From the NCBI GenBank assembly GCA_036003045.1, contig DASYSS010000057.1:1-64000 (forward strand): 64,000 bases of DNA, written 5' to 3'. Positions 10,248-56,865 of this stretch are shown piece by piece. Source of the stretch: Gemmatimonadaceae bacterium (GTDB lineage Bacteria; Gemmatimonadota; Gemmatimonadetes; Gemmatimonadales; Gemmatimonadaceae). The notes under the pieces were generated by a model. The model saw only the letters and a list, made by a program, of their open reading frames with translations. It was not told where the DNA came from and ran no database searches. The position numbers and the translations under genes are program-made. Numbering within the stretch: the first letter of the stretch is position 1; each line of letters opens with the position of its first letter.

Positions 10248-11402
10248 ATGAACGTAGTCAGCAGTTCCGGTCCACCCGTCCACTCGTCCACCCGTCCACC
10301 CGCTCGAGGGCGCGTTCTCGTCGCCATGTCCGGCGGAGTCGACTCTTCGGTCGCCGCCGCGCTTCTCGTTGAACAGGGCTACGACGTCGTGGGCGCGACG
10401 ATGAAGCTCTTTTGCCACGACGGCGACCTGCCGGACCGCCCCTGCTGTTCGCTCGATTCGGTGAACGATGCGCGCCGCGTCTGCCACACGCTCGGCATTC
10501 CGCACTACGTGCTGAACCTCGAGAGCGCGTTCGGCCGCGACGTCGTCGACGATTTCGTCGGCGAGTATTCGCGCGGACGCACTCCGATTCCGTGCGTCCG
10601 CTGCAACACGTTCACGAAGTTCCGCGACCTCGTCGCCAAGGCCGACGGAATCGACGCGCGCTGGGTGGCCACCGGACACTACGCTCGCGTCGTCGATGGC
10701 GTGTTGCATCGCGGCGTCGATCCGTCGAAGGACCAGTCGTACTTCCTCTGGGGAATCAACCGCTCCGTGCTATCGCGGATGATCCTGCCCGTGGGCTCGC
10801 AGACGAAGCCGGAGACACGCGCCGTCGCGCACCGCCTCGGCCTCGAGGTGGTGGCGGAGAAGACCGAGAGTCAGGACATCTGCTTCGTCCCCGACGGCGA
10901 CCACACGAAGATCATTCGCCAGCGACTCGGCGACGACGCGCCGTCGCTCGCGCGCGGACCGTTCGTGCTCTCCAACGGAGAGATCGCCGGCACGCACGAC
11001 GGCTTCGCACGGTTCACGATCGGGCAGCGCCGTGGCCTGCCGGGCGGATTCCGCGTGCCGATGTTCGTCGTGGAAATTCGTCCGGAAGACCGCGCGGTCG
11101 TGATCGGCCCGCGCGAGGAGTTGCTCGGACGCGGCGTGATCGCGCGCGGCATGAATTGGCTCGTCGACGCGCCCGATGTCGGCGCCCGAGTCGAAGTTCA
11201 GGTGCGCCACCGCGCGGCGCCCGCCCGCGCCGAGATCGTGCGCGTAGACAGCGACGAAGTCGAACTGGCGCTCGACGAACCGGTCGCCGCGATCACGCCG
11301 GGCCAATCGCTCGTCCTGTACGACGGCGCGCGTGTGCTCGGCGGTGGCTTGATCGAGCGTGGAATGCGGGGGCGGGGGGCGTTGCCGGTTTTAGCGGCGT
11401 AA
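10248..11402 (+). CDS. mnmA: tRNA-specific 2-thiouridylase MnmA
   Basis: A 384-residue ATP pyrophosphatase that thiolates U34 of tRNAs. Visible are the PP-loop SGGVDSSV near residues 28-35, the catalytic cysteine region PCVRCNTFTKF, TGHYAR, KDQSYFL and the second cysteine in SQDICFVPDGD. The core normally begins with a strand such as RVLVAMSGG. Here about 20 extra N-terminal residues precede it, and residues 8-19 are encoded by a copy of the octamer repeat. No in-frame ATG, GTG or TTG lies between ATG 10248 and the PP-loop methionine, so the repeat appears to be translated. The gene is probably co-transcribed with the cysteine desulfurase. Confidence 0.95.
   Translation: MNVVSSSGPPVHSSTRPPARGRVLVAMSGGVDSSVAAALLVEQGYDVVGATMKLFCHDGDLPDRPCCSLDSVNDARRVCHTLGIPHYVLNLESAFGRDVVDDFVGEYSRGRTPIPCVRCNTFTKFRDLVAKADGIDARWVATGHYARVVDGVLHRGVDPSKDQSYFLWGINRSVLSRMILPVGSQTKPETRAVAHRLGLEVVAEKTESQDICFVPDGDHTKIIRQRLGDDAPSLARGPFVLSNGEIAGTHDGFARFTIGQRRGLPGGFRVPMFVVEIRPEDRAVVIGPREELLGRGVIARGMNWLVDAPDVGARVEVQVRHRAAPARAEIVRVDSDEVELALDEPVAAITPGQSLVLYDGARVLGGGLIERGMRGRGALPVLAA
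10271..10302 (-). repeat. Octamer repeat array 1 (4 units), inside the mnmA 5' end
   Basis: Four consecutive 8-bp units TCCACCCG, one with a T variant (TCCACTCG). The G-rich strand is the minus strand. It encodes GPPVHSSTRPP of MnmA, the reading seen when an 8-bp repeat is translated (24 nt = 8 residues). Confidence 0.85.
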
Positions 11403-11405
11403 AAA

Positions 11406-11433
11406 GGGGTGGACGGGTGGACGGGTGGACGGG
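11406..11433 (+). repeat. Octamer repeat array 2 (3 units) with canonical G-quadruplex pattern
   Basis: Three units GGTGGACG directly after the mnmA stop. The strand reads GGGG-N5-GGG-N5-GGG-N5-GGG, which satisfies the usual G3+N1-7 rule for intramolecular G-quadruplexes. It faces array 3 (11470-11493) as an inverted partner. Confidence 0.85.
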
Positions 11434-11469
11434 AAACTACCTCAGTTCTCAGATCTCGGTGGTTCGCTG

Positions 11470-11493
11470 TCCACCTGTCCACCTGTCCACCTA
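11470..11493 (-). repeat. Octamer repeat array 3 (3 units), abutting the dnaJ stop codon
   Basis: Three units TCCACCTG. The final one is TCCACCTA, whose CTA is the complement of the dnaJ TAG stop. Together with array 2 it makes an inverted pair with a 38-nt loop between the converging mnmA and dnaJ genes. It is therefore a plausible bidirectional terminator. Confidence 0.8.
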
Positions 11494-15729: not shown

Positions 15730-15822
15730 GTCGACGGGGAAACTACACAGGGTGACGGCGCTCTGGATCGCGCGGGCTTACCTAGAATCTCCCGCCCTCC
15801 AACGCCTGTTCCAAGACCTACG

Positions 15823-15852
15823 TCCACCTGTCTCCCCGTCCACCCGTCCACG
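15823..15852 (-). repeat. Octamer repeat array 4
   Basis: Units TCCACCTG, TCTCCCCG, TCCACCCG and a partial TCCACG lie between the mglA stop (15858) and the pgsA start (15729). The G-rich strand is the minus strand, the same as the flanking transcripts. One unit is degenerate, so this looks like an older copy. Confidence 0.75.
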
Positions 15853-17046: not shown

Positions 17047-17385
17047 CTATTCGAGGTGGGAATCCAAGCGACGGAGGAGCCGTTCACCCGTTCGCCGAAG
17101 CAACGGACGGCGTTCCCACGCCACGTAATCATGCAACAGGTGAACGGTCTCGGGCCCCGGTTTGCGACCGAGGTATCCAAGCGCCGCCAGGCGCCTGACG
17201 GGCTTCCTGCTGAACAAGTCACGCCGCGACCGCTGAATCTGCGAATTCCACGCGGCCGCCCCGAGTATTAGACCGACGAGGAAGCCCCCCGTCACGGCCC
17301 ATCCTGTTCCATTTGCGCGGCTTCGGCGCTTTCTCGCCGTCCCGGCCCACCGGTCCACCGGTCCACCGGCCCATCTGCCGTTCAC
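17047..17385 (-). CDS. Small single-pass membrane protein, unknown function
   Basis: A 112-residue open frame starting at a GTG that overlaps the recR stop (GTGA). It has one hydrophobic segment (WAVTGGFLVGLILGAAAW, about residues 29-46) followed by an Arg-rich basic tail with a YLGRKPGPETVHLLHDYVAW stretch that looks like a folded cytoplasmic motif. The first 15 or so residues (GRWAGGPVDRWAG) are encoded by octamer array 5 and may be dispensable or not translated. I do not recognise the family. Position and overlap suggest it is made with RecR or MglB; coding status is likely but not certain. Confidence 0.55.
   Translation of the reverse strand: MNGRWAGGPVDRWAGTARKRRSRANGTGWAVTGGFLVGLILGAAAWNSQIQRSRRDLFSRKPVRRLAALGYLGRKPGPETVHLLHDYVAWERRPLLRRTGERLLRRLDSHLE
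17345..17376 (-). repeat. Octamer repeat array 5
   Basis: Units GCCCACCG, GTCCACCG, GTCCACCG and GCCCATCT, in the CCGG-rich variant. The array lies within the 5' end of the small membrane protein gene just after recR. The minus strand is G-rich. Confidence 0.75.
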
Positions 17386-18341: not shown

Positions 18342-18348
18342 GGAAAGC

Positions 18349-18377
18349 GGGTGGACGGGTGGATGGGTGGACGGGTG
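18349..18377 (+). repeat. Octamer repeat array 6 with canonical G-quadruplex pattern
   Basis: Units GGTGGACG, GGTGGATG, GGTGGACG and a degenerate fourth. The + strand reads GGG-N5-GGG-N5-GGG-N5-GGG (18349-18375). The G-rich strand is antisense to the dnaX-ybaB transcript, so the RNA carries the C-rich version. Confidence 0.85.
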
Positions 18378-18403
18378 AACCGCGGTGCGGTTGGACTTTG
18401 CTG

Positions 18404-18435
18404 TCCACCCGTCTACCGGTCCACCTGTCCACCTG
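18404..18435 (-). repeat. Octamer repeat array 7, inverted partner of array 6
   Basis: Units TCCACCCG, TCTACCGG, TCCACCTG and TCCACCTG. It faces array 6 across 26 bases, forming an imperfect long inverted repeat between the dnaX stop and the ybaB start. It could fold into an RNA hairpin within the dnaX-ybaB-recR transcript. Confidence 0.8.
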
Positions 18436-20411: not shown

Positions 20412-20511
20412 TACCCCAGGTCTGACGAAGCAACATCAGACACCTCTTACCGCTGCTACCTTCGGGGTCCTGACGGAGTTTGAAGGCTGACGCCCTCCGG
20501 GACCTGAGGCA
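20412..20511 (-). ncRNA. ffs: Bacterial signal recognition particle RNA (4.5S-type)
   Basis: On the minus strand the conserved SRP domain IV appears as GTCAGGACCCCGAAGGTAGC followed by AGCGGTAAG, matching the GGA-tetraloop/AGCAG internal-loop signature. The closing stem is CCTCAGGTC (20509-20501) with GACCTGGGG (20422-20414), nine pairs including one G-U. The small form of about 100 nt binds Ffh. Placement just upstream of dnaX is common in bacteria. The ends are set from the closing helix and could be off by a few bases. A TAAATT lies about 12 nt before the 5' end and may be a -10 element. Confidence 0.92.
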
Positions 20512-22132: not shown

Positions 22133-23167
22133 TCAGTGTCCACGCGTGAGGGCCGAACGCAGCACGGTCGCCGCGCGGCGGCAATCGTCCGCGCTCACGT
22201 CGATGTGCGTCACCAGCCGAATTCGAGTCGAGCTCCATTCGGAAACGAGCACTCCGTGTTCCTTCGCCGAGGCGGCCAGGTCGGCCACCGACTGTCCCGC
22301 GAGCAGGTCCACCATCACGATGTTGGTGTCCGGCGAAACGATCTCGACGCCGGGAATGCCTTGGAGCGCCTCCGCCATGTCGCGCGCGTTGGCGTGATCG
22401 TCGGCGAGACGCGCCAGCTGATGATCGAGCGCGTAGAGCGCCGCCGCCGCGAGGATGCCGGACTGACGCATCGCGCCGCCGAACAACTTGCGCGCGGTCC
22501 AGGCCCGCTCCATGGCCTCGCGCGTCCCGGCGAGCATCGCGCCGATCGGCGCGCCCAGCCCCTTCGACAGGTCGACCATCACGGTATCCGCCGGCGCGGC
22601 CAACTCGGGGAGCGACACGCCGCTCGCGATGCTCGCGTTCCACAGCCGTGCGCCGTCGAGGTGAACGGGAATTCCGTGCTCGCGCGCGATCGCGCACATC
22701 TCACAGAGGTCGCCGAGCGGGACGATCACGCCGCCGGCGCCGTTGTGCGTGTTCTCGACGCATACCAGTCCCGGCGCGGGATAGTATCGCGAGCGCGGCC
22801 GAAAGGCACGCCGCAAATCGTCCGCCGACATGACCCGTCCCGCCCCGTCGGGCACGACGGCGAGAATCTGCGCCCCCGCCAATGCCGCGACGCCGGCGAT
22901 CTCGCTGTGCACGATGTGCGCGTCGACGTCGGCCAACACCTCGGTGGCTCGCGGCGCGAGCAGCCACACGGCCGCCTGGTTCGCCATCACACCGCTCGGA
23001 AAGAAGAGCGAATCCTCTTTGCCCAGCATCTTGGCGACGCGCTCCTCGAGGCGGCGAGTCGTCGGATCGCCGTCGCGCTCGTCGTCGCCGACATCGGCCA
23101 CGGCCATCGCGGCGCGCATTCCCGGCGTCGGCTTCGTGACCGTGTCGCTTCGCAGGTCGATCGGCAT
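22133..23167 (-). CDS. ltaE: Low-specificity L-threonine aldolase
   Basis: A 344-residue fold-type I PLP enzyme that splits L-threonine or allo-threonine into glycine and acetaldehyde. It begins PIDLRSDTVTKPTPGMR, has HLDGARLWNA with Asp171, and VDLSKGLGAPIG with PLP lysine Lys202. An in-frame ATG 15 codons upstream (23212) is also possible, but the family normally starts at MIDLRSDTVT. I chose 23167. Coupling with the dehydratase gene gives the cell two ways to break down threonine. The 17-bp repeat cluster lies upstream. Confidence 0.9.
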   Translation of the reverse strand: MPIDLRSDTVTKPTPGMRAAMAVADVGDDERDGDPTTRRLEERVAKMLGKEDSLFFPSGVMANQAAVWLLAPRATEVLADVDAHIVHSEIAGVAALAGAQILAVVPDGAGRVMSADDLRRAFRPRSRYYPAPGLVCVENTHNGAGGVIVPLGDLCEMCAIAREHGIPVHLDGARLWNASIASGVSLPELAAPADTVMVDLSKGLGAPIGAMLAGTREAMERAWTARKLFGGAMRQSGILAAAALYALDHQLARLADDHANARDMAEALQGIPGVEIVSPDTNIVMVDLLAGQSVADLAASAKEHGVLVSEWSSTRIRLVTHIDVSADDCRRAATVLRSALTRGH

Positions 23168-23253
23168 CGACGGAATATCGCGTCGGTGCGCGAAACCCGC
23201 GAATTCGTTCATGAGGGAGGCGGGGTTCGTGGGAACGACGACGTCTTAACGGC

Positions 23254-23304
23254 GCTGACGTCCTTACGACGCTGACGTCCTTACGACGCTGACGTCCTTA
23301 CGAC
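23254..23304. repeat. 17-bp tandem repeat, left arm (3 units)
   Basis: Three perfect copies of GCTGACGTCCTTACGAC, preceded by a partial degenerate unit. Orientation is opposite to the right arm at 23338-23490; the two share the core CGCTGACGTCCTT when one is reverse-complemented. Confidence 0.9.
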
Positions 23305-23310
23305 GCCCTA

Positions 23311-23335
23311 AGGGCGCCGTCCGTTGCGGCGCCCT
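23311..23335. repeat. Central hairpin of the 17-bp repeat cluster
   Basis: A perfect 9-bp stem (AGGGCGCCG with CGGCGCCCT) around a 7-nt loop sits exactly between the two inverted arms, so the whole block 23254-23490 can fold back on itself. Confidence 0.75.
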
Positions 23336-23337
23336 CT

Positions 23338-23490
23338 GGACGTCAGCGCTCTAAGGACGTCAGCGCTCCAAGGACGTTAGCGCTCCAAGGACGTCAGCGC
23401 TCCAAGGACGTCAGCGCTCCAAGGACGTCAGCGCTCCAAGGACGTCAGCGCTCCAAGGACGTCAGCGCTCCAAGGACGTCAGCGCCCTTA
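23338..23490. repeat. 17-bp tandem repeat, right arm (9 units)
   Basis: Nine head-to-tail copies of GGACGTCAGCGCTCCAA with a few substitutions (one T in place of C in units 1 and 3; the last unit ends CCCTTA). Each contains GACGTC and AGCGCT palindromes. The last unit includes the complement of the yihY TAA stop. There are no spacers, so it is not a CRISPR array. It lies just downstream of yihY. Confidence 0.92.
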
Positions 23491-24432
23491 GTCTGTCAAA
23501 ACCTCACGCTGCAACCTCCGCACTCTCCTCAACTCGTATACTTGTCCGACCTCCCCCCCCAGTATGAAGATGAGCGCCGCGTAGTAACACCAGACGACGA
23601 CGAACACGATCGCGGTGAGCGTCCCCCTGTACATGCCGCCGGGGTTGAAGCTCCGCGTGTAGTTCGCGAAGAGGATGCGCGCTCCCTCGAAGCAGACGCT
23701 CGTGAACCCCGCGGCAACCCACGCCGACGCCGTCGTGACGCGGCGGATGGGCAGAAACTTGTAGAGCGCGTAGAACATCAGGGCGAGGAACGCGAAGCCG
23801 AGGACGCGGCCCACCCAGTAGTCGACGCCGCTCAACACGTCGGTGCGCAGCCCCACCGACACGAGCGCGTGCGACGCGAGACCGACGTACGTCGTGACCG
23901 TGACGCTCGCCACGAACAAGAGCGTCGACACGATGGTGATCTTCACGTCGAACACCTTGCCGGCGATGATGCCGCGCTCCGTCTCGATGTCGAACACGCT
24001 CGCCAGCACAGTGCGCAGCGATCCGAACAGCCGCGTGGAGAACCACACGAAGCCGATGGCGCTGTAGATCGTGATCGACCTGCGCGCGCTCAGCAGGTCG
24101 TTGATCAGCCTGTGGACCGGCGAATTGGTCTCGACATGCGCCGGGAGCAGGCGGTCGAGGAAGACGCCGATCTGGTCGGTCGAGTCGATCGACCCGGCGT
24201 ACACGATCGGCAGGATGAACGTGATGCCCGCCGCGAGGAGCAACAGGAACGGCAGCGCGGCGAGCAGAATGTTGAACGCGATCCCGCCGGCGAGGAACAG
24301 CACGTTGTCCTCACCGCTGTTGTCCCAGACCCGCTTTATGTAGTCGCGGGCGGTCCAGACAAACTCACCAATCGGAGAGCGACGAGCCCCGCCTTCGCCC
24401 CCCGTCTCTCCCGCGCTTACGCTCGAGGACAA
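23488..24432 (-). CDS. YihY/BrkB family inner-membrane protein
   Basis: A 314-residue protein with about six membrane helices. Family blocks include the GGIAFNILLAALPFLLLLAAG helix, GFVWFSTRLFGSLRTVLASVFDIE, VGRVLGFAFLALMFYALYKFLP and the C-terminal region with GTLTAIVFVVVWCYYAALIFILGGE. Members were once called ribonuclease BN, but the family is now regarded as membrane proteins of uncertain role. It follows the YtxH gene by 43 nt, suggesting a shared envelope function. Its stop codon lies in the last 17-bp repeat unit. Confidence 0.9.
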   Translation of the reverse strand: MSSSVSAGETGGEGGARRSPIGEFVWTARDYIKRVWDNSGEDNVLFLAGGIAFNILLAALPFLLLLAAGITFILPIVYAGSIDSTDQIGVFLDRLLPAHVETNSPVHRLINDLLSARRSITIYSAIGFVWFSTRLFGSLRTVLASVFDIETERGIIAGKVFDVKITIVSTLLFVASVTVTTYVGLASHALVSVGLRTDVLSGVDYWVGRVLGFAFLALMFYALYKFLPIRRVTTASAWVAAGFTSVCFEGARILFANYTRSFNPGGMYRGTLTAIVFVVVWCYYAALIFILGGEVGQVYELRRVRRLQREVLTD

Positions 24433-28559: not shown

Positions 28560-28589
28560 GAGATTCGTCCGTCGTCTCGATCGTTCCGG

Positions 28590-28621
28590 TCCATCGGTCC
28601 ACCGGTCCACCGGCCTATCGG
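28590..28621 (-). repeat. Octamer repeat array 8
   Basis: Units TCCATCGG, TCCACCGG, TCCACCGG and a degenerate CCTATCGG that contains the complement of the pgi TAG stop. It fills the gap between pgi and the aldolase gene. The minus strand is G-rich (CCGGTGGA). Confidence 0.75.
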
Positions 28622-33436: not shown

Positions 33437-33479
33437 TTCTCTCTCTCCCCCGAACTCTTCGCTGTTCAAGCGGTTCCCG

Positions 33480-33511
33480 TCCACCTGTCCACCTGTCCAC
33501 CTGTCCACCTG
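33480..33511 (-). repeat. Octamer repeat array 9 (4 perfect units)
   Basis: Four identical TCCACCTG units, the most regular array in the window, between the sugar dehydrogenase stop and the transaldolase start. The minus strand reads CAGGTGGA. Confidence 0.9.
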
Positions 33512-33530
33512 TTTCACAACCTAGCCGATC

Positions 33531-54245: not shown

Positions 54246-54285
54246 GGTGGACGGGTGGACCGGTGGACAGGCGGACCGGTAGACC
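54246..54285 (+). repeat. Octamer repeat array 10 (5 units)
   Basis: Units GGTGGACG, GGTGGACC, GGTGGACA, GGCGGACC and GGTAGACC, increasingly degenerate, between the lipoprotein stop and its terminator. The G-rich strand is the coding strand, so it lies in the 3' UTR. Confidence 0.8.
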
Positions 54286-54345: not shown

Positions 54346-56865
54346 ATGGCGCTTCCGATCGAGCCGATTCTGCCAGCCATCCGCGACGCGTTGGGCGAGC
54401 GCGGGTGCGTCGTCGTGCAGGCGCCGCCAGGGGCGGGAAAGACGACGATGGTGCCGCTTGCGCTCCTCGATGCTCCGTGGCTCACCGGGCAGTCTATCGT
54501 GATGCTCGAGCCTCGCCGGGTCGCGACACGCGCGGCGGCCTGGCGGCTGGCGGAGCTGCGCGGTGAAGAAATCGGCGAGACGATCGGCTATCGCATGCGC
54601 GGCGAGCGGCGAGTCGGACGCGCCACGCGTGTCGAGGTGGTCACGGAAGGCGTGCTCACGCGGCGTCTCCAGCGCGATCCGACGCTCGACGGCGTCGGCA
54701 TCCTGATCTTCGACGAATTCCACGAGCGAAGTCTCGACGCGGATCTCGGGCTCGCGCTCGCCCTTCGCACCAGGGCGATGCTGCGCGACGACCTGCGCAT
54801 CGTCGTCATGTCGGCGACGCTCGACGGCGAATCCGTCGCGCGGCTCCTTGGCGACGCGCAGATCGTGACGAGTCAGGGCCGGACGTACGCGGTCGAGACC
54901 CGCTACGTCGAGCCGCGGCGCGAGCCGCGCATCGAAGGCGCGGTGACCAACGCGGTCGTCGACGCGCTGCGGCGCGACGATGGCGACGTGCTCGTGTTTT
55001 TGCCCGGCGCTGGCGAGATCCGCCGCGTCGAGGCATCGCTCGCCGAACGTGTCGATCGGAGCGTGATCGTAGCGCCGCTGTACGGGATGCTCGAGCGCGA
55101 CGCGCAAGACCGCGCGCTGTTCCCGGACCGCGGCGGGCGCCGCAAAGTCGTGCTGTCGACGTCGATCGCCGAAACGAGCCTCACGATCGAGGGAATTCGA
55201 ATCGTCGTCGACAGCGGGCTTTCCCGCGCGCCGCGCTTCTCGCCGCGCACCGGCATGACGCGACTCGAGACGGTACGCGTCTCGAAATCGTCGGCGGACC
55301 AGCGGCGCGGACGCGCCGGCCGTACAGCGCCGGGCGTCTGCTACCGGCTCTGGGCCGAGCACGAAACCACGCACCTTCTCGAGCAGTCGCCGCCCGAGAT
55401 CCTCCACGCCGACTTGTCTCCGCTGGCGTTGGATCTCGCCGTCGCCGGGGTGACCGACCCCTCGGAGCTCGCTTGGCTCGACACGCCGCCGGCCGCTGCC
55501 TTCGCGCAGGCGCGCGAGCTCTTGGCCGAGCTCGAGGCGATCGATGCATCCGGCGTCGCGACCGCGCACGGCCGCGCCATGGGAGAGCTCGCGGTGCACC
55601 CGCGGCTCGCGCACATGCTGATTCGCGCGACAGAGCTGGGCGCCGCGAAGATCGCCTGCGACATCGCCGCGCTTCTCTCGGAGCGCGACGTCGTTCGCTT
55701 TCAGGAAGGCTCGAGTGATTCGGATCTCGCGCGCCGGCTCGATCTCATGCGTGCATCCCGCGACGCGTCGGCCGACGTCGACCGCGACGCTCTTCGGCGA
55801 GCGAGGACGGAGTCGGATCGCCTCGCCGAGCGACTGGAGTCCGTCTCAGTCACCGGCCGTCCACCTGTCCACCCGTCCACCCGTCCACCGGATCCGGGCG
55901 CGCTGATCGCACTCGCCTACCCCGACCGCGTCGCGAAGCGTCGTTCCGCGACCGGCCCGGGGACACGGGCGCGTTTCGTTTTGCGCAACGGTCGCGGCGC
56001 CGAAGTGCGAGAGAGCGATTCGCTCGCCGCGTCGCCGTTCATCGTCGTCGCGCAGTTGGACGACCGGAAGCCCGAAGCGCAGATCTTTCTCGCGGCGGCG
56101 GTCGACGAGGATGACGTGCGCCGCTTGTTCGGCGATCAGATCGTGACCGACGAGTCGGTGGACCTCGACGATTCGACGGGCGCCGTCGCCGCTCGGCGTG
56201 TCGAGCGACTCGGCGCGATCGTGCTGCGCGAATCTTCGCTCGCCGCGCCGTCGGAGGAGTCGGCGCGCGCGGCGCTCCTCCGGGCGATTCGGCGCCGCGG
56301 CGTGTCGGGGTTGCCATGGTCCGACGCCGCGACCCGTCTGCGCCAACGCATGTCGTTCGTCGCGTTTCACGATCGTGAATGGCCCGACGTGTCCGACGAC
56401 GCGCTCACGGCGCGCCTCGACGAGTGGTTGGCGCCGTCGCTCGCCGGCGTTCGTCGGCTCTCCGCGCTTCAGCAGGTGGATCTCTCCGAAGCGCTCTCGT
56501 CGTTGCTCGACTGGCGGCGGCGGCGGGCGCTCGACAACCTCGCTCCGTCGCACGTCGTCGTTCCCACCGGCTCGCGCATTCCCATCGACTACTCGGATCC
56601 CGCCGCGCCCAAGGTCGCGGTCCGCTTGCAAGAGGTGTTCGGGCTGACGGAATCGCCCCGGGTGCTGGACGGCCGCGTTCCCGTCACGATGCAGCTTCTT
56701 TCGCCGGCGCACCGTCCGGTGCAGACCACGCGCGACCTCGCCGGATTCTGGCGCACGAGTTACTTCGACGTGCGAAAGGATCTACGCGGGCGATATCCCC
56801 GTCACGAATGGCCGGAGGATCCGCTCACCGCTGCGCCGACGAAACGCGCGAAGCCGCGGCGCTGA
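54346..56865 (+). CDS. hrpB: ATP-dependent helicase HrpB
   Basis: An 839-residue DEAH-box helicase. Motif I is QAPPGAGKTT (Lys32), motif II DEFH at 123-126, and motif III SATLDGE near residue 155. The C-terminal helicase domain has STSIAETSLTIEGIRIVVDSG and QRRGRAGRTAPG, followed by the HA2 region and the HrpB C-terminal domain (SRIPIDYSDPAAPKVAVRLQEVFGL). The start is ATG 54346; the upstream frame runs through the terminator. Residues about 505-515 (RPPVHPSTRPP) are encoded by octamer array 11, inserted in frame just before the LIALAYPDRVAKRR block. Cellular role is uncertain, probably RNA-related. Confidence 0.94.
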   Translation: MALPIEPILPAIRDALGERGCVVVQAPPGAGKTTMVPLALLDAPWLTGQSIVMLEPRRVATRAAAWRLAELRGEEIGETIGYRMRGERRVGRATRVEVVTEGVLTRRLQRDPTLDGVGILIFDEFHERSLDADLGLALALRTRAMLRDDLRIVVMSATLDGESVARLLGDAQIVTSQGRTYAVETRYVEPRREPRIEGAVTNAVVDALRRDDGDVLVFLPGAGEIRRVEASLAERVDRSVIVAPLYGMLERDAQDRALFPDRGGRRKVVLSTSIAETSLTIEGIRIVVDSGLSRAPRFSPRTGMTRLETVRVSKSSADQRRGRAGRTAPGVCYRLWAEHETTHLLEQSPPEILHADLSPLALDLAVAGVTDPSELAWLDTPPAAAFAQARELLAELEAIDASGVATAHGRAMGELAVHPRLAHMLIRATELGAAKIACDIAALLSERDVVRFQEGSSDSDLARRLDLMRASRDASADVDRDALRRARTESDRLAERLESVSVTGRPPVHPSTRPPDPGALIALAYPDRVAKRRSATGPGTRARFVLRNGRGAEVRESDSLAASPFIVVAQLDDRKPEAQIFLAAAVDEDDVRRLFGDQIVTDESVDLDDSTGAVAARRVERLGAIVLRESSLAAPSEESARAALLRAIRRRGVSGLPWSDAATRLRQRMSFVAFHDREWPDVSDDALTARLDEWLAPSLAGVRRLSALQQVDLSEALSSLLDWRRRRALDNLAPSHVVVPTGSRIPIDYSDPAAPKVAVRLQEVFGLTESPRVLDGRVPVTMQLLSPAHRPVQTTRDLAGFWRTSYFDVRKDLRGRYPRHEWPEDPLTAAPTKRAKPRR
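55860..55891 (-). repeat. Octamer repeat array 11, inside hrpB
   Basis: Units TCCACCTG, TCCACCCG, TCCACCCG and TCCACCGG. It encodes PPVHPSTRPP in HrpB. The reading frame is kept on both sides, so the array replaces or extends a linker without breaking the gene. Confidence 0.85.

Follow-up and report, generated by a model that had tools for sequence, protein, structure and literature searches.

The subject of this analysis is a block of 17-bp tandem repeats at positions 23236 to 23490 of a 64,000-nucleotide stretch from a Gemmatimonadaceae bacterium (contig DASYSS010000057.1, positions 1 to 64,000, forward strand; hereafter the window). The block is probably a non-autonomous, S23-less copy of a mobile S23 hairpin element, reduced to its arms in the manner of a miniature inverted-repeat transposable element (MITE). 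A complete element of this kind consists of a tandem array, a gene for a four-helix-bundle S23 protein, and the same array in inverted orientation. Direct support exists for this layout in the window's own repeat family, for the presence and absence of the unit behind stop codons in related plasmids, for an arms-only copy at such a site, and for a repeat-unit length that follows the S23 family.

The left arm of the block (23236-23303, plus strand) contains three identical 17-bp CGCTGACGTCCTTACGA units at 23253-23303 and one degenerate outer unit at approximately 23236-23252. The right arm (23338-23490, minus strand) contains nine units of GGACGTCAGCG plus CTCCAA, with variants; on the minus strand these units read CGCTGACGTCC, separated by spacers such as TTGGAG. 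TRF scores are 113 for the left arm and 282 for the right. Between them lies a centre of 34 bp without assigned strand (23304-23337), with a GC hairpin whose stem is 9-10 pairs long; it has neither an open reading frame (ORF) nor a T run. A first-pass annotation of the window had described this anatomy of inverted arms, three and nine units long, around a central hairpin, and it stands; of the span given there, 23254-23490, the end is correct, and the array begins at 23253. The arms had also been said to be able to fold onto each other, which stands as well. RNA folds of the block on both strands fall far below those of shuffled sequences (z = -11.8 and -12.0). The outermost right unit ends in TTA, that is, TAA on the minus strand, and thus holds the stop codon of a yihY-like gene, as first proposed. 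The statement that every unit carries GACGTC and AGCGCT does not hold, since the left units lack AGCGCT and the third right unit reads GACGTT. Allowing one mismatch, the repeat core occurs at 16 sites in the window against 5.5 expected, and none of 100 shuffles scored as high.

No S23 gene lies inside the window copy, whose centre is without an ORF, and the copy is therefore classed as an arms-only derivative. Its link to S23 is through the common repeat family, with no S23 gene at the locus. Within that family, two loci of the same genome carry the gene. At one (L045, contig C74), arms of the window's unit enclose an S23 frame of 100 aa that is short at its end and falls just below the Pfam cut-off and above the NCBIfam cut-off; at the other (L219, contig C86), an S23 ORF lies between 17-bp arms. 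S23-bearing and S23-less copies thus coexist in a single genome, and the window copy belongs to the S23-less type. Relaxed core searches found seven elements, all with inverted arms, in a genome of the same genus (G005); in one of them (L105), the arms surround an ORF that belongs to the 23S rRNA intervening-sequence protein family (PF05635, TIGR02436). Each of the six genomes of the genus has several S23 genes.

The family is dispersed through its own draft genome. A genome-wide search for further copies, as proposed in the first-pass annotation, found the CGCTGACGTCC core 88 times without mismatch, compared with 2 occurrences of the reversed pattern, and about 16 arrays once the variant cores GGAAGTCAGCG, GGACGGCAGCG and GGACGTCGGCG are counted. 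A lack of further copies, part of the refutation named there, did not come about. Many of these arrays are inverted arm pairs with unequal copy numbers, as first noticed in the window, and copy number differs strongly among the arrays of the genome. A rule of one 'A' and one 'B' spacer arm per paired array held in the first arrays and was dropped because it failed at C74. Outside the species, the exact unit pair matched four times in actinobacterial contigs, and neither 58 relatives nor viral contigs gave a match. With relaxed cores, a second genome of the genus (G002) has one weak array, and none was found in sampled genomes from 34 other genera of the family. An 8-bp family (GTCCACCN / NGGTGGAC) is also present in the window as ten short arrays, at 10270-10302, 11407-11433 and 11467-11492, 15821-15851, 17342-17373, 18348-18377 and 18401-18435, 28586-28613, 33479-33512, 54246-54285, and 55857-55889. 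At two places they form inverted pairs, and they resemble a further family of this type, built from octamers.

The array-S23-inverted array layout is found well beyond this genus. Of 61 genomes from the phylum, 34 have S23. At least five inverted 11-mers are common to both flanks of S23 at 37 of 65 loci in the Gemmatimonadota set, compared with 0.6% of mismatched flank pairs, and inverted 11-mers join the flanks at 11 of 20 plasmid loci, compared with 1.8%. Among controls, such flanks were seen at 2/10 Uma2 loci and 3/41 other loci. Of 85 S23 loci, 71 have a tandem array exceeding the 95% null within 260 bp of the gene on one side or both, and 41 of them have one on each side. Most units measure 7-8 bp, and those of some clades 11-20 bp. 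The S23 genes of cyanobacterial plasmids have the same layout, usually with heptamers such as AGTAGGG...ORF...TCCCTAC. On an Azospirillum plasmid (L266), the S23 gene is located within a 23S rRNA gene (Rfam LSU, 2529 bits), and so in a true intervening sequence; its inverted heptamer arms give a stem score of 23.5, whereas none of 43 control pairs scored above 13. A search of phages and viral contigs with one query found no S23. Another side of the family is seen at a locus of the window's genome (L114, C74:40751-41901), where inverted 17-bp arrays enclose a Uma2-like gene, as if the element were able to carry another gene in place of S23. Uma2 was rejected as a general cargo, given the low count of inverted flanks at Uma2 loci.

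Comparisons of related plasmids show the element behaving as a unit. In six of them, all between cyanobacterial plasmids, one plasmid has the S23 gene together with both arrays and the other has none of the three; most breakpoints immediately follow the stop codon of the gene upstream. In one pair (L187 and L258), the flanks are 98.8% identical but the break is less sharp. The L192 site is empty in two plasmids, and in a third (L264) it holds arms without S23, a derivative of the type seen in the window. Some cyanobacterial plasmids have S23 genes with their arrays inside CRISPR-Cas operons (clustered regularly interspaced short palindromic repeats), namely L187 and L201 (cas6 - S23 - cas4) and L194 (cas10 - S23 - cmr3); in L258, a close relative, the cas6-cas4 gap has no S23.

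Repeat-unit length tracks the S23 protein. When 70 S23 proteins are placed on a tree, those of the 16-17 bp class form one branch with support 100 and require one change, whereas shuffled labels require a mean of 5.8 and a minimum of 4. When units are divided into three classes (7, 8-9, and long), the tree requires 12 changes against 26 for shuffled labels. These patterns suggest that the S23 protein and its arms belong together.

A mechanism can be proposed on this basis. S23, a relative of the retroelement accessory protein Avd, would recognise the arms, as DNA or RNA, and would promote the copying or maintenance of the element. The transcript, for which a long and stable stem is predicted, would fold into a long hairpin that RNase III could trim, as in rRNA intervening sequences; within this proposal, intergenic insertion would do little harm because the hairpin can be trimmed. 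Arms would lengthen and shorten through slippage, and arms-only copies would arise by gene loss or by mobilisation in trans.

Several points weigh against reading the block as a derivative of a mobile S23 element. About 14 of the 85 S23 loci have no array above the null, and the window copy itself is without any S23 remnant. The clustering of unit lengths is partly expected from joint inheritance, and the S23 tree behind it has few columns and many weak forks, with unit lengths assigned by the analyst. The plasmid pairs are silent on whether the element was gained or lost, and none of the six showed a clear target-site duplication. For the window copy, the comparison is one between species only (array or no array). 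Finally, reverse transcriptase and Y1 transposase were considered as mobilisers in the window's genome and neither was detected (no match to PF00078 or PF01797, respectively; other transposase families were not searched).

An alternative is that the arrays are home-grown, a hairpin or short repeat at a gene end having expanded in place by slippage and template switching, with S23 genes tolerating or favouring such sites. Unequal arms and identical adjacent units fit this explanation, as does the occurrence of unrelated arrays at the same gene end in three species. It is nevertheless unlikely: the plasmid pairs take out S23 and both arrays jointly, one core recurs in some 16 distant arrays of a single genome, and unit length follows the S23 tree.

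The position of the block at a gene end raises a second alternative. The element lies between two ORFs on the minus strand, named from sequence character, yihY being the name given in the first-pass annotation: directly upstream is that of the yihY-like membrane protein (23488-24432), and downstream that of a threonine-aldolase-like protein (22133-23212). All six genomes of the genus have yihY orthologues, and in relatives the aldolase-like gene is likewise next. At the yihY position, three species of the genus have three different arrays and three have none. More generally, a stop codon ending a long frame lies within 45 bp of an outer edge in 18 of 21 17-bp elements, compared with 45% of random positions drawn from all positions, not only intergenic ones. 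This tendency and the very stable fold would suit an RNA structure under selection, whether for insulating transcripts, for stabilising the end of the yihY mRNA or for binding a regulator. Such a role is improbable, given the absence of a T run or terminator signal, the three genus genomes without an array at this site, and the many, unrelated neighbours of the arrays elsewhere. The first-pass annotation had put forward transcript insulation, replication-fork pausing or protein binding; as the primary identity of the block these are unsupported, and the arrays resemble the arms of S23 hairpin elements. In three relatives (L207, L208, L210), the yihY-aldolase gap contains a small lipoprotein-like ORF that the window genome lacks. 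Elsewhere in the window, a bacterial small signal recognition particle (SRP) RNA (RF00169, 49.8 bits) lies at 20412-20508 on the minus strand, directly upstream of a dnaX-like ORF.

More doubtful still is a reading of the block as a MITE that belongs to an ordinary DNA transposon, with S23 as its passenger. The inverted ends, the small size, the occurrence in multiple copies, and the array pair holding a Uma2-like gene would all suit such an element, yet the arms are tandem arrays whose unit varies between elements, with no fixed terminal repeat. The six plasmid pairs lacking a clear target duplication also speak against it, as does the search, limited to the Y1 family, that detected no transposase. 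An assembly artefact can be practically dismissed: array repeats do break the assembly, as two contigs (C17 and C34) end in arrays, but units differ by point changes, the window copy is interior to a 195-kb contig, and the same layout occurs in plasmid records described as complete.

If the block derives from a mobile S23 element, the implications may reach further. Published work describes two questions as open: where the short tandem heptamer repeats of cyanobacteria and other bacteria come from, and what role is played by the S23 protein that rRNA intervening sequences encode (PMC4679880, PMC4990558). The end-gene-end layout across the phylum, in cyanobacteria, and in one true rRNA insert may therefore explain both old repeat puzzles together. 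The evidence is evenly poised on a broader proposal, in which 23S rRNA intervening sequences, cyanobacterial heptamer repeats and the 17-bp arrays would form one superfamily of mobile hairpins, with S23 as sole gene and arms matched to the S23 family, seeding scattered arms-only arrays in many bacteria. In the open-licence literature, a link of S23 genes outside rRNA to inverted tandem arrays is unreported; the Coxiella heptamers are the one case found there of tandem arrays joined with S23, and earlier reports elsewhere are possible. The common anatomy, the plasmid pairs with and without the element, and the prediction of repeat length by the protein tree converge on a single testable question, namely whether S23 moves or maintains these hairpins, via RNA or DNA.

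Among known systems, some can be set aside. CRISPR arrays combine direct repeats of about 23-47 bp with unique spacers, whereas the window has contiguous 17-bp units and no unique spacers; intrinsic terminators share the GC hairpin and differ by their T run. Both had already been rejected in the first-pass annotation. Rfam families gave the SRP RNA as their only match, and tRNA was also rejected. Repetitive extragenic palindromes (REP and REPIN) with their RAYT transposases are dispersed intergenic palindromic repeats, as here, but the window family forms tandem arrays in a genome with no detected Y1 transposase. Diversity-generating retroelements encode Avd, a structural relative of S23 (PMC10053308), and differ by a reverse transcriptase with template and variable repeats; no reverse transcriptase was detected in the window's genome. 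MITEs and foldback elements share small size, inverted arms, multiple copies, and gene-less copies with the window family, for which no match to transposase ends or target duplication is established. In eukaryotes, the arms of foldback elements consist of tandem repeats.

The closest likenesses are with short tandem repeats and rRNA intervening sequences. The heptamers that flank plasmid S23 genes look like the long-known short tandemly repeated repetitive (STRR) sequences of cyanobacteria, an identification supported by PMC4692102; cyanobacterial S23 genes lie between such arrays. STRR heptamers, the GGGAATC repeats of Xanthomonas, often found as convergent pairs (PMC4692102), and the TAACTGA repeats of Beggiatoaceae (PMC4679880) are, like the window arrays, intergenic short tandem units, of 7 bp rather than 17 bp; the papers on these repeats (PMC4692102, PMC4679880) do not mention S23. 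The window element differs from 23S rRNA intervening sequences in its place between two protein genes and outside any 23S rRNA gene, the window having no rRNA, in its 17-bp units, and in lacking an S23 gene. In these intervening sequences (S23/IVP, PF05635, TIGR02436), the S23 gene sits within complementary stem-loop arms, as in the proposed element. Tandem heptamers occur in the arms or leader in Azospirillum and reportedly in Coxiella, where they precede the S23 gene in variable number (PMC4990558).
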